Shown: positions 7,212-30,339 of the stretch, piece by piece | How positions within the stretch are numbered: the first letter of the stretch is position 1 | Layout of the letters: each line of letters begins with the position of its first letter | NCBI GenBank assembly: GCA_022705405.1 | Contig: JAKJEN010000008.1 | Location: 1 to 34,589, forward strand | Direction: 5' to 3' | DNA: 34,589 bases | Source: Planctomycetota bacterium | GTDB taxonomy: Bacteria > Planctomycetota > Phycisphaerae > Sedimentisphaerales > Anaerohalosphaeraceae | Position numbers and translations under genes: made by a program | The notes under the pieces: generated by a model | The model's database searches: none | What the model was told of the DNA's origin: nothing | The model's input: only the letters and a program-made list of their open reading frames with translations

Positions 7212-8651
7212 CTACGCCTCTTGAATATCGAGCAGATCGGGACGGTTCGGATGCTGGAGCGGTTCTTTGTGTGCCAATCTCCGAAGGGCGCCGGATGCAA
7301 GGGGGATCGCCAAAAGAAAACTGAGGATATCCGCCACGGACTGGCTGATCTGTACCCCAAAGAGTCCGAACAGTATCGACAGAATAAAGACTGCCGGAAT
7401 AAACATAAATCCCTGTCGGGATGCGGCCAGGATCAGGGCCTTTCCCGGCTGGCCGATATACTGGAACATCATGTTGGTTATCACCGTGATGGCCGTCAGA
7501 GGCAGGGTAGCGCACTGGAACCGAAGCGCCAGGATTCCCACCTTGAGCACCTCCGGGTCATCGCGAAACAGCCGGACAAGTTCCTGCGCAAAGACGCTTG
7601 CTCCAACCGTATAGATGAACAGCCCCCAAAACCCCACTTTTATGGAGAACCAGAACGCCTGATGGACTCGATTATAAAGGCCGGCGGTATAGTTAAAGGC
7701 CGCCACCGGCTGAAAGCCCTGCCCAAAGCCGATCATGGCGGATCCTATAAAAATGGTGATGCGGTTGACGATGGTCATGCCGGCGATTGCGGCATCGCCA
7801 TAAATACCGGAAACCGAGTTTAGGATGGCCGCCGAAAGGGTCACCAGCGACAGACGAAAAAAAGTGGGCAGCCCGGACCAGAAGATTTGCAGGTGCATCG
7901 ATCTGTCAGTGCGGATATTTTTGAAGTTGATTCGCAGGGCGCTTTGCCGCCTGATATAGTAAGACAAAAGGATGAGGAAGGAGACCAGTTGGCTTAGCAC
8001 AGTGGCCGCGGCGGCGCCGGCGATGCCCATGCGAAAAGCAAAGATAAACAGCGGATCAATCGCGATATTGATAATCGCCCCGCTTACCAGGCCGATCATG
8101 GCCAGCACGGCGCTGCCTTCGGAACGAAGATTGACATTCATCACAAAAGAGGCGGCCACAAAAGGCGCTCCCAGCAGGATGTAGGCGGCATATTCTTTGG
8201 CATAGGGCAGGATGGTCTCGGTAGAGCCAAGAAGCCGCATCAGAGGGCTTGAGAAGATCTCGCCAAAGAGAGTCATCAGACCGCCGCAGGCCAGAGCCGT
8301 AAAAAAGGCGGTGGAGACAACCTGATTGGCACGGCTTACATCTTTGCGTCCCAGCAGTCGGGCGACGCAACTGCCCGATCCCACGCCCAGGGTCATGCCC
8401 ACCACCTGGATGGCCGTCATCAGAGGAAAGACCACCCCAACGGCACCAGTGGCGGCGGTGCTGAGCTTGCCCACGAAATATGTATCCGCCATATTATACA
8501 GGGCCGTCACCAGCATACTGATAATCGTCGGCACTGCCAGATTTACCACCAGACGAGAAACCGGCTCGGTGGTCATGCGGACAAAACGTGCGTTCGGGTC
8601 GCCCCTGGACACCTCAACAGGCGCCCGTAATTGAGATGTAGATAACTGCAT
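7212..8651 (-). CDS. MATE family multidrug/solute efflux transporter
   Basis: 479 residues with about 12 hydrophobic helices and the two-lobe repeat of the MATE family (MepA/DinF-like). Lobe one has TEPVSRLVVNLAVPTIISML and YNMADTYFVG; lobe two has GFGQGFQPVAAFNYTAG, a strongly conserved MATE loop. These are Na+- or H+-driven exporters in the inner membrane; the substrate is not predictable. About 25 polar residues precede the first helix. No ribosome-binding site precedes the ATG at 8651, and TATGAT lies eight bases upstream of it, so the message may be almost leaderless, or translation may start at M26 (8576). The gene is convergent with the pseudogene. Confidence 0.9.
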   Translation of the reverse strand: MQLSTSQLRAPVEVSRGDPNARFVRMTTEPVSRLVVNLAVPTIISMLVTALYNMADTYFVGKLSTAATGAVGVVFPLMTAIQVVGMTLGVGSGSCVARLLGRKDVSRANQVVSTAFFTALACGGLMTLFGEIFSSPLMRLLGSTETILPYAKEYAAYILLGAPFVAASFVMNVNLRSEGSAVLAMIGLVSGAIINIAIDPLFIFAFRMGIAGAAAATVLSQLVSFLILLSYYIRRQSALRINFKNIRTDRSMHLQIFWSGLPTFFRLSLVTLSAAILNSVSGIYGDAAIAGMTIVNRITIFIGSAMIGFGQGFQPVAAFNYTAGLYNRVHQAFWFSIKVGFWGLFIYTVGASVFAQELVRLFRDDPEVLKVGILALRFQCATLPLTAITVITNMMFQYIGQPGKALILAASRQGFMFIPAVFILSILFGLFGVQISQSVADILSFLLAIPLASGALRRLAHKEPLQHPNRPDLLDIQEA

Positions 8652-20627: not shown

Positions 20628-21737
20628 TTAGGCAATTACTTTGGCCTTCTCTTTGGAGCCGGCGGTCCTGGACAAATCCTTGTGCGCCAGCAATTTATCC
20701 ATCTTCCCGGGGTTGCTGGAACGTGTGACGGCCTCTTCTCTGTCAATATAGTCCGCTTCGTACTGCTGCTGGATGCTGAAGTCCATGCTCTGCATACCCA
20801 GCCGACGGGATGTTTCGATAATGTTGGGAATTTCATAAATTCGATTTTCACGGATGCAGTTTCGAACCGCCGAGGTGCACAGAAGGATTTCGGTGCAGGG
20901 AACCATGCCCGGCTTATCCACCCGACGGAACAGGGTCTGGGAGATGACTGCCTGAAGCGTATTGGCCAGCATGGCGCGAATCTGGTTCTGCTGGCTGGCC
21001 GGATAGATATCGATGATACGCTCGATCGTCTGGGGAGCGTTGACGGTGTGCAGTGTGGACAGCACCAGGTGTCCGGTTTCGGCGGCGGTGATGGTCGAAC
21101 TGGTGGTTTCCAGGTCTCGCATTTCGCCGACCAGGATGATGTCTGGGTCCTGACGCAGGGCATGCCGCAGGCCCGAGGCGAATGTGGGGCAATCCGATCC
21201 GATTTCCCGCTGTTCGATCATGCAGGATTTATTTTCGAGCAGATATTCGATGGGGTCTTCCAGCGTGATGATGCGTTTTTTGTATTTTTTGTTTATCACC
21301 CCGATCATCGAGGCCAGGGTGGTGCTTTTGCCCGATCCGGTATGGCCGGTCACAATCACCATGCCCCGGGGCAGATCCGTCAATTCCTTGACAATCGGAG
21401 GCAAGTGCAGATTTTCCAGATCCGGAACCTTATTGGAAATGGCGCGGAAGGAAATAGCGATGCTGTCTTTTTGATAATGGGCATTGACACGGAATCGGCT
21501 TCCGTCGTCGATCATGGTCGAAAAATCCAGATCTCGCTTTTCTTCAAATTTTTTGAATTTGGCCTCTCCAACCATATCGACAACCATCGCGGCGGCATCT
21601 TCATTGGATACTTCGGGCAGATCCATAATGATCAGTTCAGTATTGATGCGCATTACCGGAGGCAGAGAGGTATTGATATGTACGTCCGAAGCGCCGGCCT
21701 GAATGGCCATTGCCAGCATATCTTTGACACGAATCAT
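20628..21737 (-). CDS. pilT: PilT-type retraction ATPase
   Basis: 369 residues, a hexameric ATPase that depolymerises type IV pili in the cytoplasm. ASDVHINTSLPPVMR is the N-terminal PAS-like domain start; GHTGSGKST (131-139) is Walker A, ITLEDPIEY the Asp box, DPDIILVGEMRDLET Walker B, and GHLVLSTLHT the His box. The late helix AVRNCIRENR is the PilT-specific AIRNLIRE motif needed for retraction, which argues for PilT rather than GspE. The ATG overlaps the pilB stop (ATGA). Presence of PilT suggests true retractable pili rather than pure type II secretion. Confidence 0.93.
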   Translation of the reverse strand: MIRVKDMLAMAIQAGASDVHINTSLPPVMRINTELIIMDLPEVSNEDAAAMVVDMVGEAKFKKFEEKRDLDFSTMIDDGSRFRVNAHYQKDSIAISFRAISNKVPDLENLHLPPIVKELTDLPRGMVIVTGHTGSGKSTTLASMIGVINKKYKKRIITLEDPIEYLLENKSCMIEQREIGSDCPTFASGLRHALRQDPDIILVGEMRDLETTSSTITAAETGHLVLSTLHTVNAPQTIERIIDIYPASQQNQIRAMLANTLQAVISQTLFRRVDKPGMVPCTEILLCTSAVRNCIRENRIYEIPNIIETSRRLGMQSMDFSIQQQYEADYIDREEAVTRSSNPGKMDKLLAHKDLSRTAGSKEKAKVIA

Positions 21738-23662
21738 GCTTTTCTCCTGGTTTTTTCTGATTTTTTCTTTTCCACGACGGGTTTCTGGGCTTCCTGAGCG
21801 AATTCAGAAGCGTCAGAGGGCTGAGCGGAAGGCAGGCAAACGGGTTCTTCGCCGGACGAGGCCTCCGTCACTCGCAGCACCTCTTCGATCGTGGTAATTC
21901 CTTTTTTTACTTTTTGCAGTCCATCGTCAAACAGGCAGGGCCAGCCGCTTTTGACAAAGGCCTTTCGCATACTGGACACGGAGGAATCCTCGTTGATGAT
22001 CCGGCGGAATTCCTCATCCACAACCAGCAGTTCAAAGATTCCGGCTCGGCCGGCATATCCGCTGTTTCGGCATTTGTCGCAACCCTTTCCGCGAACCAGT
22101 TCGGGTATCTGAATGGAGGCCCGATCCAGAAATTTCTTGACGCTATCGGTGACTTTGCAGGTTTCCTTGCAGTGCGAACAGATCCGGCGAACCAGCCGCT
22201 GAGCCAGAATACCGTTCAGCGAAGCCGCAATCAAATAGGGTTCGATTCCGATATTAACAAGACGCGAAACGCTGCTGGGCGCATCGTTGGTATGCAGGGT
22301 TGATAGCACCAAGTGCCCAGTGAGGGCCGCCTGCACGGCGATCCGGGCGGTCTCCTGGTCGCGAATTTCTCCGATCATGATGATGTCAGGGTCCTGTCGA
22401 AGCATACTTCGCAGGGCTGCGGAAAAGGTCATTCCGGCCCGCTCGTTCACCTGCACCTGATTGCAATACTCAAGATTGTATTCGACCGGATCCTCCACCG
22501 TTGAGACATTGAGCCGCTCGCTGTCCATCTGGGCCAGCGCCGAATAAAGGGTGGTGCTCTTGCCGCTTCCGGTCGGACCGGTGACCAGCAGGATTCCGTG
22601 CGGCAGAGCGATCTGCTCCTGAAAGGCCTCCAGTACGCGCGGTTCCATGCCGGATTTATCCAGCCCGAGCATGATGCTCTTGCTGTCCAAAAGCCGAATG
22701 ACCACTTTTTCGCCGTGGCTGGTGGGCAGGACCGAAACGCGAAGATCAATGCCGCGGCCGCCCATAATGACGGCAATTTTTCCATCCTGCGGCACGCGCC
22801 GTTCCGAGATGTCCAGGTTGGACATGATTTTAACGCGGGATACAATCGCCGCGTGCATCTTGGCCGGGGCCTGGCGGGTTTCAAACAGAACCCCATCAAT
22901 GCGATAGCGGATCTTGGTGTATTTCTCTTTGGGCTCGATATGGATATCGCTGGCTCCTTCGTGCAGAGCGTTGCTGAGGATATAATTGACAAATTTGATG
23001 ACCGGCGATTCGCCGGCGCTTCGTTCGAGATCTTCAATATCCTCTTCGGTTTCATGGACCAGTTCGATCTCATCCATGTCGCTCATGATTTCATCGACAT
23101 TGTAATCGAACTTGCTGTCATCAAGGGCATCGCAGATTTCTTCTATATTCTGCTGCGTGCAAACGGCGATCTTAACCTGCATTCCGGTGTGCCGCTTGAC
23201 ATCGTCAATCCCAAAGACATTGGCCGGATCGCTGGTGGCCACTGTCAGAACTCCATCCTGAATGGCCAGCGGCAAGATATGATTGGCCCGCACATAGTTC
23301 AATCCGAGTTTGCTGAACGCTTCGCGGTCCACCTCCTCAGGACGAAGGGCGCAAAACTCATATCCATGAAGCCGGGCCTTGGCCTGTAGAATAACCTCCG
23401 GCTGAAGTCCGGCTTTTTTGCAGAGTTTTTCGACCTCTTCGCCGCGTATTTGTTCTGCGCGGATGTGACCGGCCTGTTCGGCGGTCAGCGCTTCCATCTC
23501 CACCAGCACATCCACCAAACTGCGGACATGAATTCTCGCCTTGGGTTCGGGACAATAGAGATTGCGAAGACCCGGAGCCAGCTCCAGCTGACCGCCGTCT
23601 TCTTCCAGATCTTTCAGCGCCACTACTTCCGCGGCTTTTTGTTTTCCGAAGAGTCTCTTCAT
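21734..23662 (-). CDS. pilB: PilB/GspE-type assembly ATPase
   Basis: 642 residues, the extension/secretion ATPase. The N-terminal MshEN/T2SSE_N domain covers about 80-190, then an acidic linker (190-215). SPVIKFVNYILSNALHEGASDIHIEP opens the core; Walker A is GPTGSGKST (362-370), the Asp box VSTVEDPVEY, Walker B DPDIIMIGEIRDQETARIAV and the His box LVLSTLHTNDAPS. The two CxxC pairs of the zinc clip are C495/C498 and C528/C531. The final 45 residues are an extra Ser/Glu/Lys-rich tail. It overlaps the gspB/pilP-like gene by four bases (ATGA). Confidence 0.94.
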   Translation of the reverse strand: MKRLFGKQKAAEVVALKDLEEDGGQLELAPGLRNLYCPEPKARIHVRSLVDVLVEMEALTAEQAGHIRAEQIRGEEVEKLCKKAGLQPEVILQAKARLHGYEFCALRPEEVDREAFSKLGLNYVRANHILPLAIQDGVLTVATSDPANVFGIDDVKRHTGMQVKIAVCTQQNIEEICDALDDSKFDYNVDEIMSDMDEIELVHETEEDIEDLERSAGESPVIKFVNYILSNALHEGASDIHIEPKEKYTKIRYRIDGVLFETRQAPAKMHAAIVSRVKIMSNLDISERRVPQDGKIAVIMGGRGIDLRVSVLPTSHGEKVVIRLLDSKSIMLGLDKSGMEPRVLEAFQEQIALPHGILLVTGPTGSGKSTTLYSALAQMDSERLNVSTVEDPVEYNLEYCNQVQVNERAGMTFSAALRSMLRQDPDIIMIGEIRDQETARIAVQAALTGHLVLSTLHTNDAPSSVSRLVNIGIEPYLIAASLNGILAQRLVRRICSHCKETCKVTDSVKKFLDRASIQIPELVRGKGCDKCRNSGYAGRAGIFELLVVDEEFRRIINEDSSVSSMRKAFVKSGWPCLFDDGLQKVKKGITTIEEVLRVTEASSGEEPVCLPSAQPSDASEFAQEAQKPVVEKKKSEKTRRKA

Positions 23663-24315
23663 TCTTCTGTTTTTAACTCAATGACAATATCTTCATAGGC
23701 AATCCGAACTCGATCCGACAGAATCTCTTTGACGATAAAGCCCTGAATGGCGTCGCCGATATAGAGGACTTTATCATTGATCATACAGCAGGAATTACTC
23801 TGTCGGGCGGTGATGCTCCACAGTTTAAGCAGCCCGGCCCGCCGCTGCATTTCCTCCTTTCGCATCAGGGACTGGGTCAAGGAAAGATCCTGACCGGATG
23901 TATCGAGCGTGTTTTCCTGTCGAAAGGGATTTTTCTTCAGATCCGCTACGGTAATCTGTCCCAGTTCCGAGGCCTGAGAAAATCGGCTGGATACCGAATC
24001 CATCTGGCTGTTAATCTCCGTCTGAAAAGAAGTCAGCTGGGCCAGGGCCTTATCAATCTGCGAGGCCTCCTCGCCCGAGGCGCCGTGGGCCTGGGAAAGA
24101 CCCGATTTTTTTATCATCCACCAGACGCCCGCTGCGCCTGCGGCAAACAGGATCACCAGAACAATCGTTCCCTGCCGGACGTTCCGGGCGTGAACAGCCG
24201 GCCTGAAATATTCGCCGGCCCCCAAAGCGCCGGACTGGCCGCCTGTCTCAGCGGTCTGCTGCTGCATCTGCTCGGCCGCAGGGGGTTGATTGGCATCTCG
24301 CAAATAAGCTAACAT
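23659..24315 (-). CDS. GspB/PilP-like inner-membrane linker protein
   Basis: 218 residues: a cytoplasmic Gln/Gly-rich region (1-48), one membrane helix (about 49-68), a helical periplasmic stretch and a small C-terminal domain (about 160-218; LKLWSITARQ, CMINDKVLYIGDAIQGF, RVRIAYEDIVIEL). The end resembles the GspB/PilP/GspC HR-type fold that joins the inner-membrane complex to the secretin. Residues C181-C182 are adjacent and their role is unclear. The in-frame ATG at 24315 is favoured over 24378 by GGAG seven bases upstream. The stop overlaps the pilB ATG. Confidence 0.7.
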   Translation of the reverse strand: MLAYLRDANQPPAAEQMQQQTAETGGQSGALGAGEYFRPAVHARNVRQGTIVLVILFAAGAAGVWWMIKKSGLSQAHGASGEEASQIDKALAQLTSFQTEINSQMDSVSSRFSQASELGQITVADLKKNPFRQENTLDTSGQDLSLTQSLMRKEEMQRRAGLLKLWSITARQSNSCCMINDKVLYIGDAIQGFIVKEILSDRVRIAYEDIVIELKTEE

Positions 24316-24364
24316 AGACAGACTCCTAACATTCTGTATTTCTTTTGTTTGTTTGCCGGACGGA

Positions 24365-24901
24365 TCAGGCCTTTGCATTCTGGAAGAAAATGCTCATGAT
24401 AAATTTGGCCTCTGTCTGGCCTTCGAACTTGGATTTCTTTTTCAGTTCCAGTTGGCGGATTTTTGTAATTCGATCCATCCGCTCCAGTTCCAGCAGAAAG
24501 GCATAGTACGAGTTAAAATCCCCATGCAATTCCATTTCAAGCGGCTGCTCAATGTATCCCTGATTGCTGGCGGTTTTAAGAGTACGGATCATTTTGGGAA
24601 CCAGCCCGTGCCGCTGTGCGATGAGGGTCACGTTCTCCAGCACGGTATAGATTTCACTGCTGGGCGGCAGTTTGCTTTCAAACTCGTGAATCACTTTTTC
24701 CATCTGTTCCAAGTGAACGGTCAGATCTTCGGAAGCCGTTTTTGCCTTGGCCAGCTCGGTCAATTTGGCCCGGCTGGATTCCATTTGCACCCGCTGACGG
24801 ACCAGATGTTCATTGGCCGGTTTGATCATGTACGCATAGGACACATAGACCATCGCGATAATCAGCACAAAGAAAATAAGATGACGCAGTCCGCTGTTCA
24901 T
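24365..24901 (-). CDS. pilO: PilO-like inner-membrane protein
   Basis: 178 residues: a very short cytoplasmic end, one membrane helix (about 7-26), a coiled coil (about 35-80: QMESSRAKLTELAKAKT) and a ferredoxin-like domain (about 95-178: YIEQPLEMELHGDFNSYYAF, FLLELERMDRITKI), which is the PilO/GspM layout. It pairs with PilN in the alignment complex. The ATG at 24901 has AAGGA six bases upstream; the longer frame to 24958 overlaps the pilN end and is not family-like. Confidence 0.85.
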   Translation of the reverse strand: MNSGLRHLIFFVLIIAMVYVSYAYMIKPANEHLVRQRVQMESSRAKLTELAKAKTASEDLTVHLEQMEKVIHEFESKLPPSSEIYTVLENVTLIAQRHGLVPKMIRTLKTASNQGYIEQPLEMELHGDFNSYYAFLLELERMDRITKIRQLELKKKSKFEGQTEAKFIMSIFFQNAKA

Positions 24902-24920
24902 GGGACTTCCTTTCTTTGGA

Positions 24921-25646
24921 TCAGATCGTCTCGTTTCGTTTATTCCGAATTGACTCAATGTCTTTTCGTGTGAGTTTCAAATTGGGCTTGAGCCGCGCGG
25001 CCAGACGAAACTCGCGGTATTTGATTCCGTCAATCTCGCGTTCTTCGCTCTGGACCAGTTGGACCTGATCGAGCAGGATGGAAGCGCTGAGATTGGCGAT
25101 GTAGCTGGCCACTTCAATATCGCTGGGCGCAAGACCTTTGATTTCAAGATTTGTTTCCGGTTCCTGAGGCGCAGGAACCGGTTCGACGGCCGATTTTTCA
25201 GCCGATTTTTGATACCCTGTTTTTTTCCCGCCGGCGGCCGATTTGCCCTGAGCCGGGGATGCGGCCGGCGCCCGGGGCTTTTCTTTTTCCTTCATATCCA
25301 GGGCCGTCAGGGAAACCCCGCCGGGCAGATTGTTGGTCAGACACGCCAGCAGAATGCTCCTGGGAACCGGCTCAATCAGCGTGGCAGTCATCATCATAAC
25401 CTTCATCCGCGTATTGTTTTTGCTTTTGAGTTCCTCCAGCATGGCGATCTGCTCTTTGGCCTGATTGAGCTGCCCGGTCAAAACGCTCAGTTCGGCCTGG
25501 ACGGACCGCTGTCGCATCTTCAGCACCGAAAAGGTCATTCCGATACCCGCCAGAACCGCCACCAGCAGAATCAGATACAAAGAGTTGGCCCGATTCGACT
25601 GGCGCTGCTGAATATAATCGTTGGGAACAAAATTAATCGTTGCCAT
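24921..25646 (-). CDS. pilN: PilN-like inner-membrane protein
   Basis: 241 residues. The N-terminus MATINFVPNDYIQQRQSNRA is the PilN tail that binds PilM (family consensus INLLP), followed by one membrane helix (about 23-43), a coiled coil and a ferredoxin-like domain (about 90-235; NLPGGVSLTALDM, NLEIKGLAPSDIEVASYIANL). It contains a Lys/Ala/Pro-rich insert (about 122-160) not usual in PilN. The start is set by the INFVP motif; the ribosome-binding site is weak. It lies 38 bases after pilM. Confidence 0.85.
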   Translation of the reverse strand: MATINFVPNDYIQQRQSNRANSLYLILLVAVLAGIGMTFSVLKMRQRSVQAELSVLTGQLNQAKEQIAMLEELKSKNNTRMKVMMMTATLIEPVPRSILLACLTNNLPGGVSLTALDMKEKEKPRAPAASPAQGKSAAGGKKTGYQKSAEKSAVEPVPAPQEPETNLEIKGLAPSDIEVASYIANLSASILLDQVQLVQSEEREIDGIKYREFRLAARLKPNLKLTRKDIESIRNKRNETI

Positions 25647-25684
25647 ATTTGTTATTCGCTTTCTGATAAAAGTCCATCTGTCTT

Positions 25685-26653
25685 CTACTCTGCCAGACCT
25701 TCCAGACTTAATCCAAAGGCCATGGCCCAGTCCACCTTCGAATTTCGCCGATCGATCATACATTTTTGCTCGAGAGGATCCACCCGAACCGCCGAGAGGA
25801 CATCTCCAATCTGTGCGGCAATCTGCATCCGCTGGGCCATTTCTGCCACCTGGTCACAGACGCCCCGGTTTACATTGCTGCCGGAGAGAAAGACCAGCCG
25901 TTCAATCGGCTTGCTGGCGGGCATGGTTTCATAATACCGGGCGCAGGCGTCTACTTCTGCAATCATCCGGGGGAGGTTTTCGGGCTGCTCCATCTGATCA
26001 AATCCGATCGGAATGACCCGAGCAAACAGCAGCTGAGTTCCGCGACAGACAACCACATTGCAGTGATTGCTTCCAATTCCCATCAAAATCGATACTCGAT
26101 CGCGCTCATTTTTACGACGGCAGAAAAACCGGATGTAGCTGTTAATCATGGCATAGGGCCAGGTGTTGATGGAGTGTATTTCCAGTCCTGCCTTTTCATA
26201 AATCGCCAGATGCAGATCCACCTTTTCCCGATGAGCCGCCATAACCAGAACCTCTGTCTCCGAACTTTTGCAGTCGGGATGCTCGGCGGCGATATATTTG
26301 AGAATGCCTTCCTCCGGCCTGAACGGCAGTTTATTCTGAACGCGGGCAAACGCCGATTGTTCGATCTGGGCTCCCGCTGATTTGGAAATCCTCACCTGAT
26401 CGATAAATAAATCATCCGAAGGAAGCGCGGTGACTATTTTTTTTCCTTTAAAGGCCTTTTGTCTGCTAATCTGCTTCATGGCGCCAAGCGCCCATCGCTG
26501 CCATTCGGGGCTGCCGGGCTGAATAGAATCGGGTCTGGCCTCAAGACCGGCGGCCTGAAGGAACAGACCCTGACCGTTTATTCCCAACTGCGCCAGGCGC
26601 AGATACCTGCTTCCCAGGTCTACGCCAATCGGACAATATTTTTTACTCAACAT
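25685..26653 (-). CDS. pilM: PilM-like actin-fold protein
   Basis: 322 residues. IGVDLGSRYLRLAQL (9-23) is the phosphate-1 loop of the PilM/FtsA actin-like fold; YEKAGLEIHSINTWPYAMIN, GIGSNHCNVVVCRG and LVFLSGSNVNRGV are later nucleotide-fold motifs. PilM is cytoplasmic and binds the PilN N-terminus. It is the first clear gene of the operon. The ATG at 26653 has AAGGA nine bases upstream; upstream in-frame codons to 26686 overlap that site. A possible 61-codon ORF ends over its start (ATGTTGA). Confidence 0.87.
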   Translation of the reverse strand: MLSKKYCPIGVDLGSRYLRLAQLGINGQGLFLQAAGLEARPDSIQPGSPEWQRWALGAMKQISRQKAFKGKKIVTALPSDDLFIDQVRISKSAGAQIEQSAFARVQNKLPFRPEEGILKYIAAEHPDCKSSETEVLVMAAHREKVDLHLAIYEKAGLEIHSINTWPYAMINSYIRFFCRRKNERDRVSILMGIGSNHCNVVVCRGTQLLFARVIPIGFDQMEQPENLPRMIAEVDACARYYETMPASKPIERLVFLSGSNVNRGVCDQVAEMAQRMQIAAQIGDVLSAVRVDPLEQKCMIDRRNSKVDWAMAFGLSLEGLAE

Positions 26654-26832
26654 AGAAAATATTCCTTGTCGTATTGCCTTGTGCACTTTTCCCGGATCCT
26701 AAATCCGACAGAAAGGGAAATACGATCCATCCATTCGTCGTCCGGATTTCCCTCCGACATTAGCACGTGTTTGAAGCAGCGGGTCCGCGAAAAGTCTGTA
26801 CGACATTTAAAGTGTACATAATAATTGCCCAT
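26647..26832 (-). CDS. possible small ORF overlapping the pilM start
   Basis: A 61-codon frame starts with ATG at 26832 (MGNYYVHFKCRTDFSRTRC...) and its TGA overlaps the pilM ATG in ATGTTGA, as coupled genes do. The peptide is rich in Arg, Lys, Cys and aromatic residues. Against it, there is no clear ribosome-binding site and no family was recognised. A minus-strand promoter for the pilus operon, not clearly seen, should lie in or upstream of this stretch. Confidence 0.22.
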   Translation of the reverse strand: MGNYYVHFKCRTDFSRTRCFKHVLMSEGNPDDEWMDRISLSVGFRIREKCTRQYDKEYFLC

Positions 26833-27063: not shown

Positions 27064-28059
27064 TTATTCGGCTTTGAGAGAACGGCTCATCAATCCGACA
27101 ATGGCTTCCTTTACATGAAGCTTGCCGCTGACCACTGCAAAGACCGCCTCGGTAATGGGCATTTCCACATGATATCTGGCCGCCAACTGGACGACCGATT
27201 GGCAGGTGGTCACCCCTTCAATTACGCTGTGGGTACTCTGGATGGCTTCTTGCGCGGTCATTCCCCGGCCGATCTGCTCGCCAAATGATCGGTTGCGTCC
27301 TTTGGGAGAAATACAGGTGGTGACCAAATCGCCCAGCCCGCTGAGGCCGGCAAAGGTACTCTCGTGCGCCCCCATGGCCTGCCCGAGCCGACTGATTTCG
27401 GCAAGTCCCCGCGCAATGAGGGCGGCCTTGGCGTTATCGCCGGCTCCGATTCCATCGATGCATCCGGCGGCAATCGCGATAACATTTTTCATCGCCCCTG
27501 CCAGTTCCACCCCCGCAAGATCCATATTGGTATAAACCCGAAACATGGGAGTGGTAAAGGTCTCCTGAATCCGCTCCGCCAGCGATTGATCCCTGCAGGC
27601 GGCCGTGGCTGTGGCCGGCAGACCCCGCATTAGTTCATCGGCAATGGTCGGGCCGGAAAGAGCGGCATAATCACGGTTTGTGCCCAGCGCTTCCTGAAGG
27701 ATCTCGGTCGGGCGAAGCAGAGTTTTGTTCTCGATTCCCTTGGTAACGCTGACGATCGGAACCCCTGGGGGCACGTTCGGTTTCAGCCGCTGCCAAACCG
27801 AGCGAACAAACTGACAGGGCACCGCAGAAACCAGCAATTGGGCTTCCTTGAGAGCTTTGGCATCGTCGGCCTCAAAACGCAATGCCGCCGGAAGCGGATA
27901 GCCCGGAAGAAACTTTGTGTTCTCGCCTGCGGCGGCAAACCGGGCCAGCTGCGCCGCATCATAACCCCACAGCGTAGTCGTAACCCCATTGCTGCACAGG
28001 AGCATTCCGCAGACAGAGCCCATCGCCCCGTCGCCGATTATGGTCGCCCGTTTGAACAT
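27064..28059 (-). CDS. gpsA: glycerol-3-phosphate dehydrogenase [NAD(P)+]
   Basis: 331 residues, cytoplasmic GpsA, which makes sn-glycerol 3-phosphate from dihydroxyacetone phosphate for phospholipid synthesis. IIGDGAMGSVCGMLL (7-21) is the Rossmann fold; KFLPGYPLP, VSVTKGIE and LSGPTIADEL are family motifs; the catalytic lysine is K191 in GAMKNVIAIAAG; GLGDLVTTC and SPKGRNRSFGEQIGRG complete the active site. There is no ribosome-binding site before the ATG at 28059, and a promoter-like TTGAAA-17-TTTACT ends only six bases before it, so the mRNA from that promoter could be leaderless. It lies 67 bases after hflX. Confidence 0.95.
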   Translation of the reverse strand: MFKRATIIGDGAMGSVCGMLLCSNGVTTTLWGYDAAQLARFAAAGENTKFLPGYPLPAALRFEADDAKALKEAQLLVSAVPCQFVRSVWQRLKPNVPPGVPIVSVTKGIENKTLLRPTEILQEALGTNRDYAALSGPTIADELMRGLPATATAACRDQSLAERIQETFTTPMFRVYTNMDLAGVELAGAMKNVIAIAAGCIDGIGAGDNAKAALIARGLAEISRLGQAMGAHESTFAGLSGLGDLVTTCISPKGRNRSFGEQIGRGMTAQEAIQSTHSVIEGVTTCQSVVQLAARYHVEMPITEAVFAVVSGKLHVKEAIVGLMSRSLKAE

Positions 28060-28126: not shown

Positions 28127-29368
28127 TTACAGGATCTCAACCTGCTCTGCCCCGAGGTGGCGAAGGTGAGGCGTCTGGTTTTTGCCCAGCCAGGCCTCCA
28201 TTGTCACCTGCGACCCGTCGTATTCTTCCCTCAGATCGATGGCGTGGGCTCGCAGAAAACTGATCAGCCGCCCATCCGAGATCGGGCTTTTAAGGCGGAT
28301 ATGCAGTTCCTTTCCGCGGACGATTTCCTGCACCCGCTCGCCCAGTTGATCCAGGTTCAGACCTGATCGCGCGGAGATCGCTACCGCCTCCGGATAAACC
28401 GTCTGGAGCGATTCAAACAAGCCGCCGCCAGAAATGATATCGCATTTATTCAGCAGCATAAGGATCGGTTTTTGTCCGCAGCCGATCTGGCCGAGCACAG
28501 TCTTGACGCTGTCGATCTGTTCAAATACCTCAGGGCTGGATGCGTCAATTACGTGCAGCAGCAGATCAGCGTGAACGGCCTCTTCGAGAGTTGCCTTGAA
28601 CGACGCGACCAGATGATGCGGCAGTTTGCTGACGAATCCGACCGTATCGCTGAGCAGGACTTCCTCGGTCAGAGCATTCATCAGCGTGCTTTTTCCTGCA
28701 TTGGTATAGCCAACCAGGCAGATTTTAAAAAAATCACGCCGGCCGTCAATCTCTCTCAAAATCCGCCCGTCGATCTCCTCCAGTTCGCGTTTGAGGGCGG
28801 TAATTCGTTTGCTGACAAGGCGCCGGTCGATTTCCAACTGTTTTTCACCGGTTCCGCGTGTGCCGATACCGCCGACAGCTCCGGCTGAGGTGCCCCCGCC
28901 GGCTCCTGCCACGCTGTCCAGGTGCGACCACATCCGCGTCAAGCGCGGATAGGTATATTCAAGTTGAGCCAGTTCGACCTGGAGTTTGGCCTGCCTGGTC
29001 TGAGCGCGAGCGGCGAAAATATCGAGGATCAGTTCGCTGCGGTCGATCACCTTGACCTTGACGATATTTTCCAATTCGCGGATCTGGCCAGGGGTCAGAT
29101 CATTGTCGAAGATCACAAGATCGGCGCGGCTTTTCTGCACCTTCTCCAGAAGATGTTCGGCCTTGCCTTTGCCGATATAAGTAGCCGGATGGATGCGAGG
29201 GATCTTCTGCTGGAGCCGGTCAACGATGATGGCGCCGGCGCTTTCAGCCAAGGCGGTCAATTCCGCCAGATTGTCGATTCTATTATTTGAGTCCCGGGCG
29301 CGAAGGTAAGCGCCCACAAGAACCGCCCGTTCCCTGATGACCTTAATCTGGTCTTTAATTTTTTCCAA
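28127..29368 (-). CDS. hflX: HflX-type GTPase with switch I segment missing
   Basis: 413 residues. The N-terminal HflX domain (about 15-150: DNDLTPGQIRELE, VIDRSELILDIFA, QTRQAKLQVELAQLEY) and the hallmark GIGTRGTGEKQLEIDRR (about 168-183) are normal. G1 is GYTNAGKS (220-227), G3 DTVGF (241-245), G4 NKCD (307-310). Between G1 and G3 only about 13 residues remain; usual HflX has about 40, including switch I/G2 (LFATLDPTTR-like), so about 27 residues are gone in frame near 28661-28667. G3 and KLPHHLVASFKATLEEAVHAD pick up normally. HflX splits stalled ribosomes, and GTP hydrolysis needs the missing Thr. A Gly-rich insert (153-167) is also present. The start is a TTG with GAGGGG twelve bases upstream; a strong promoter precedes it. 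Confidence 0.9.
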   Translation of the reverse strand: MEKIKDQIKVIRERAVLVGAYLRARDSNNRIDNLAELTALAESAGAIIVDRLQQKIPRIHPATYIGKGKAEHLLEKVQKSRADLVIFDNDLTPGQIRELENIVKVKVIDRSELILDIFAARAQTRQAKLQVELAQLEYTYPRLTRMWSHLDSVAGAGGGTSAGAVGGIGTRGTGEKQLEIDRRLVSKRITALKRELEEIDGRILREIDGRRDFFKICLVGYTNAGKSTLMNALTEEVLLSDTVGFVSKLPHHLVASFKATLEEAVHADLLLHVIDASSPEVFEQIDSVKTVLGQIGCGQKPILMLLNKCDIISGGGLFESLQTVYPEAVAISARSGLNLDQLGERVQEIVRGKELHIRLKSPISDGRLISFLRAHAIDLREEYDGSQVTMEAWLGKNQTPHLRHLGAEQVEIL

Positions 29369-29589: not shown

Positions 29590-30339
29590 CTACTTTTTTC
29601 GATTGACCCATGCCTCATATCGCTGACGATAGCCATAACCGAAATAATCAATGGAGAACTCGTTGCGGATTTTATATTTCTTAAAGATTCTGACGATGTG
29701 TTTCTCTGTCCATGCCGCCAGAGAATCTACCCGAGCCTGTTCGAGACGTTCCCGAATGATCCTCTTTTCCTGATCCTTCATCTCCGGAACCATTTCTACA
29801 TAGGCGTTATAGGTGCGTTCTACGCCCGGCGAGCGAGTTATCAGATCCAGCAAGACTATAATCTGCTCTTCACTTAGTTCTTGTCGCAGCGCCTTGAGCA
29901 ATCCATGGATCTGGGGAACAAACTGGGCATAAATCGGATCGATCTGTTCGACCATAATAGTCAGGGCCTTCAATTCATCTTTTTGGCCATGCTGCGGATT
30001 GCGCGCATCCTCCCAGTCGGACCAGGCGGCTTCGAGTTTTTCGCCCGTCTGCTGATGCCATGCCCAAACCCGTCCATAGTGCTCCGCCAGCAGAGCCGCC
30101 ACCCTGATTTCTTTCGATTCATTGCCTAACTTCAGGTATTGCGTCAGTTGTTGACTCTTTTTCTGGACCCTGTTTTGAATGTCTTCCGGCAATTGAGGCG
30201 ACATCCATACAGGTCCAGATCCGGAATCAATCTCGGCCTGTGTCCTTGCCGCGATCTCCATAGCAGATTCAGCATACAGAGCGGATACAGCCAAAACGAC
30301 GATACAACTTACGGCGGCTTTTTTAATTTGTCCGGCCAT
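29590..30339 (-). CDS. secreted DUF3826-like protein
   Basis: 249 residues with a signal peptide (about 1-23, cleavage after ALYA). The mature part is helical and rich in Gln/Glu/Lys (ALLAEHYGRVWAWHQQTGEKL, LSEEQIIVLLDLIT). Its C-terminus, with AAWTEKHIVRIFKKYKIRNEF, resembles DUF3826, secreted proteins of Bacteroidota and Planctomycetota often found near polysaccharide-degradation genes; function unknown. This assignment is from memory of the motif and needs a profile search. GGAG lies seven bases before the ATG. A weak TTGAAA-16-AATAAA at 30408-30435 may be its promoter. It is divergent from dapF. Confidence 0.6.
   Translation of the reverse strand: MAGQIKKAAVSCIVVLAVSALYAESAMEIAARTQAEIDSGSGPVWMSPQLPEDIQNRVQKKSQQLTQYLKLGNESKEIRVAALLAEHYGRVWAWHQQTGEKLEAAWSDWEDARNPQHGQKDELKALTIMVEQIDPIYAQFVPQIHGLLKALRQELSEEQIIVLLDLITRSPGVERTYNAYVEMVPEMKDQEKRIIRERLEQARVDSLAAWTEKHIVRIFKKYKIRNEFSIDYFGYGYRQRYEAWVNRKK

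Follow-up and report, generated by a model that had tools for sequence, protein, structure and literature searches.

The HflX gene of a draft Planctomycetota genome (GCA_022705405.1; family Anaerohalosphaeraceae) lacks 78 bp in the sequence as assembled, and with them the switch I segment of this GTPase. Judging from sequence comparison, the gap is most likely a local assembly error, to which we assign a probability of roughly three in four. The HflX of the organism itself is most likely ordinary and complete: two pieces lying about 78 bp apart in the real chromosome would have been joined without Ns in the scaffolded metagenome assembly, and this false join would have dropped switch I together with strand beta2. 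Because 78 is a multiple of three, the reading frame would have been kept by a one-in-three coincidence, and raw reads would be expected to lack support for the junction. A preliminary description of this DNA had offered a natural variant, a recent deletion and an assembly error as possible readings. We favor the last because all relatives that were read are intact and because the same assembly contains several other short, N-free losses, some of which break the frame; an evolved natural variant found no support.

The hflX Gene and Its Gap

The window analyzed here is the whole of one contig (34,589 bp; C312). Its hflX open reading frame (28127..29368, minus strand) encodes 413 aa from the TTG start as listed, compared with approximately 440 aa in relatives, and the product is 62–78% identical to that of 29 relatives. 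It scores 368.8 bits against the TIGR03156 (GTP_HflX) profile, above the equivalog cutoff of 216.75, as two separate stretches, and both the N-terminal HflX domain (PF13167) and the middle region (PF16360) are matched. Sequence and alignment place an intact G1 or P-loop motif, GYTNAGKS, at 28711-28688 and an intact G3 motif, DTVGF, at 28648-28634 (both minus strand), and G4 (NKCD, of the NKxD type), the G5-like SAR and the flanks of the gap are also intact. The protein has the same domains, G1, G3, NKCD, SAR and C-terminal part as known HflX (TIGR03156; the E. coli type solved as 5ady; 8vio and others), whereas the assembled sequence is without 26 residues that comprise switch I/G2, with its LFATLD-T segment, and beta2.

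The translation around the gap reads ...FKICLVGYTNAGKSTLMNALTE directly followed by EVLLSDTVGFVSKLPHHLVASFKATLEE..., with the junction at approximately 28664/28663, between the codons ACC GAG and GAA GTC. The two abutting codons, GAG and GAA (28661..28666, minus strand), encode residues 235 and 236, and the sequence spanning the junction is ACCGAGGAAGTC (28655-28675). The spacer from G1 to G3 was described as about 13 residues against a normal length of about 40, and this is borne out: it has exactly 13 residues in the translation (TLMNALTE followed by EVLLS), and 39 or, in one case, 40 in the 29 relatives read at this locus. Counted from the G of GYTNAGKS up to the D of DTVGF, the distance is 21 residues here; it is 47 in 28 of the relatives and 48 in the remaining one. 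Compared with congeners, the loss amounts to 26 residues, or 78 bp, in frame and between normal flanks as the preliminary description had stated, though one residue fewer than its estimate of about 27. The segment removed consists of switch I (LFATLDTRTRKW) and beta2, the latter placed within the missing part by the predicted structure of an intact congener. The LFATLDPT-type segment reported as absent is indeed gone: the missing part holds LFATLDTRTR-W, which is invariant in 26 of 26 relatives in the alignment (A3). The gap covers very nearly the interval that separates helix alpha1 from strand beta3.

The residues bordering the gap are nearly identical to those of the congener (13/15 before it and 15/15 after it), which indicates that the gap is not a chance reading. 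The assembly has a single hflX copy, with no second full-length gene and no stray switch I motif or fragment anywhere else in it, and the whole window is free of N, so that none occurs at the gap. Congener DNA at the two gap ends suggests that they have just 1–2 bp in common, and thus there is no evident sign of a simple overlap-merge error, of a repeat-mediated deletion or of a long false overlap.

Downstream of hflX lies a gpsA-type glycerol-3-phosphate dehydrogenase gene (27064..28059, minus strand) that is full length compared with the congener. These two genes adjoin a cluster resembling those for type IV pili or type II secretion (20628-26686, minus strand), in which PilM/PilN/PilO-like genes are followed by two tandem T2SSE-type ATPase genes (642 and 369 aa). 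Directly upstream of hflX lies a DUF3826-domain gene (29590-30339, minus strand).

The remainder of the gene resembles that of intact congeners. The part before G1 is 83–84% identical to congeners, and the intact congener locus L002 is 82–84% identical to the congener loci L003–L006 in the same part; from G3 on, the identities to L003–L006 are 68–70% for the gapped HflX (68–72% across congeners) and 67–70% for L002. The dN values of 0.10–0.12 before G1 and 0.20–0.27 from G3 are likewise comparable with those of intact congeners, with dS near saturation. Relaxed selection on the remaining hflX was not seen, as the gapped gene is as distant from L003–L006 as the intact L002. With the rest of the gene unrelaxed, the loss is either very young or absent from the organism.

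Distribution of the Gap among Related and Other Genomes

The same gap, which the preliminary description proposed to look for in related genomes, is absent from them: the five congeneric genomes all have a complete switch I, as do the other members of the family and order that were read. In an indirect test across 161 genomes of the order, in which the match to an intact relative is split in two at the missing segment, the unbroken match expected of a deleted HflX (E ≤ 1e-118) was found only in this assembly. We also scanned for a P-loop separated from DTVGF by 7–27 residues, each pattern covering one Gly codon. Across 392 genomes of the phylum (codon GGA), a gapped HflX was found only in this assembly, and across 397 genomes of the class (codon GGT), there was none; the single class hit (genome G092) was set aside as unrelated. 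A lineage-specific variant would be expected to recur in one or more related genomes, and no other genome with it was found among the 161 of the order or in the partial phylum and class scans. A trait common to the genus, family, order or phylum was rejected on the basis of the intact relatives and these scans.

A wider scan of approximately 85,000 species genomes, using the P-loop codon GGC only, one of the four Gly codons, yielded 85 stretches, of which 80 were translated (L151–L230). Five of these are HflX shortened between G1 and G3; most hits of the scan proved to be different proteins or chance matches out of frame and were not considered further. All five shortened HflX come from metagenome-assembled genomes (MAGs) and none from an isolate, and their breakpoints are all different. 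The frame is kept in two, which have lost part of beta2 (L193) or part of alpha1 (L201), and broken in the other three, namely L199 and L220, where the remaining HflX is intact in another frame, and L204, which contains Ns. At the sequence level, such scattered shortened HflX in MAGs form a pattern of sporadic errors and not a recurring natural form.

Comparable Losses Elsewhere in the Assembly

The assembly (2.86 Mb in 323 contigs, 89% complete) was compared with that of a congener (G004), with 855 kb, or approximately 30% of the former, set against 1.59 Mb, or 53% of the latter. The forward comparison covered 240 ortholog-like genes (87,905 aligned residues) and the reverse comparison 245 genes (93,716 residues). 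There are 39 runs of N in the 855 kb, some of them within conserved genes such as pgk (phosphoglycerate kinase), where the gap size is misjudged. In addition, conserved genes have short losses without N that resemble the one in hflX and do not always preserve the frame, as expected of assembly errors. RarA (L236; contig C284, ORF 1-963) has lost 27 bp in frame, so that nine residues of the congener, GGEDPRFIA, are missing between flanks in which 14 of 15 residues on each side are identical. ClpB (L249; contig C271, at ~8,090, about 8060-8130) has a 17-bp loss that breaks the frame after approximately 121 codons and leads to an early stop, while the remainder lies in another frame with 88% identity to G004. 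In the RnfD/RnfG locus (L243; contig C277, 4275-5981), a loss of 14 bp fuses into one ORF two genes that are separate in G004; this fusion could be natural. A 17-bp frame-breaking loss early in clpB does not evolve as an adaptive variant.

The gap in hflX belongs with this small group of N-free lesions, which amount to roughly one per hundred genes. In the reverse comparison of 245 genes, conserved sites on the G004 side showed no loss of this kind; one large split against G004 (a 1121-aa ORF, L069 versus L132) was noted. On this comparison, the assembly is not fully trustworthy at this scale. Local assembly errors in MAGs are documented to yield wrong protein genes in public databases, and they are suspected of featuring prominently in the output of some assemblers (Genome Res. 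2020, PMC7111523). The present case resembles those in having clean but probably wrong sequence within conserved genes, beside N-gaps, in a scaffolded metagenome assembly; it differs in that the error was demonstrated there by read mapping and is deduced here from comparison.

Alternative Explanations

What speaks against an assembly error is that the frame is preserved, that no N is present and that the ends of the gap match the interval between alpha1 and beta3 so closely. Moreover, an assembler of the de Bruijn type normally needs reads across a junction. A real 78-bp deletion that arose recently in the sequenced population, as a strain polymorphism or a young loss-of-function allele, would explain the clean junction with neither N nor long repeat, and the dN of the remaining gene, similar to that of intact congeners, is as expected of a loss so young that the gene shows no sign of it. 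The resulting protein would be without the loop that senses Mg2+ and the gamma-phosphate and would not hydrolyze GTP, with no special selection involved; laboratory bacteria can grow without HflX. We nevertheless regard such a deletion as unlikely, since a common assembly cause for the N-free lesions in hflX, RarA, ClpB and RnfD/G is simpler than several independent recent mutations, although these other lesions could in principle be real too, and every shortened HflX found in other genomes belonged to a MAG.

A natural, functional HflX without switch I would bind nucleotide and the ribosome through its N-terminal domain and P-loop, would not hydrolyze GTP, and would serve as a factor that binds ribosomes but has no GTP off-switch. 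Switch I and the edge strand beta2, which make up the excised part, form one structural unit, alpha1 could join beta3 directly, and G4 and G5 are intact. Studies of Era and of HflX with GDPNP offer analogies. The Thr of the G2 loop coordinates Mg2+ and the gamma-phosphate, and S. aureus Era minus 10 switch I residues (delta-G2, without A38-G47) kept nucleotide and 30S binding, while GTP hydrolysis was abolished (PMC8579695). GTP-state E. coli HflX splits 70S ribosomes; with GDPNP, the reaction was slow in one study (PMC4770234) but was reported as efficient in another cited there. By analogy, the behavior expected of HflX lacking switch I is binding without hydrolysis. Like Era delta-G2, it would be a ribosome-associated GTPase with switch I removed; unlike that engineered protein, which lacks 10 residues, it has lost 26 including beta2 and is probably not a real protein. 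Its gap occurs in no relative of any rank examined, neither compensating nor relaxed change is seen elsewhere in the protein, and it occurs just once, in a draft MAG that has further lesions. The predicted structure is of low confidence at the junction (block means of 40–48 over residues 231–260, from shallow alignments), and its pTM of 0.51, compared with 0.66 for the intact congener, likewise comes from shallow alignments and is weak evidence. A functional HflX of this kind is very improbable, and we give hardly any credence to a naturally occurring, ribosome-binding and non-hydrolyzing HflX without switch I and beta2 that would serve as a non-switching ribosome-splitting or hibernation-like factor.

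Implications

The gapped HflX is most likely not a new kind of HflX; it is better explained by faulty assembly or, at the very most, by a lesion of recent origin. It is worth noting that when a draft MAG loses an invariant motif cleanly, in frame and without any N, the result can mimic a striking natural variant, and that such artefacts can be exposed cheaply by checking other conserved genes of the assembly against a congener. If the gap were real, it would mean that a conserved ribosome GTPase is able to do without its G2 switch.
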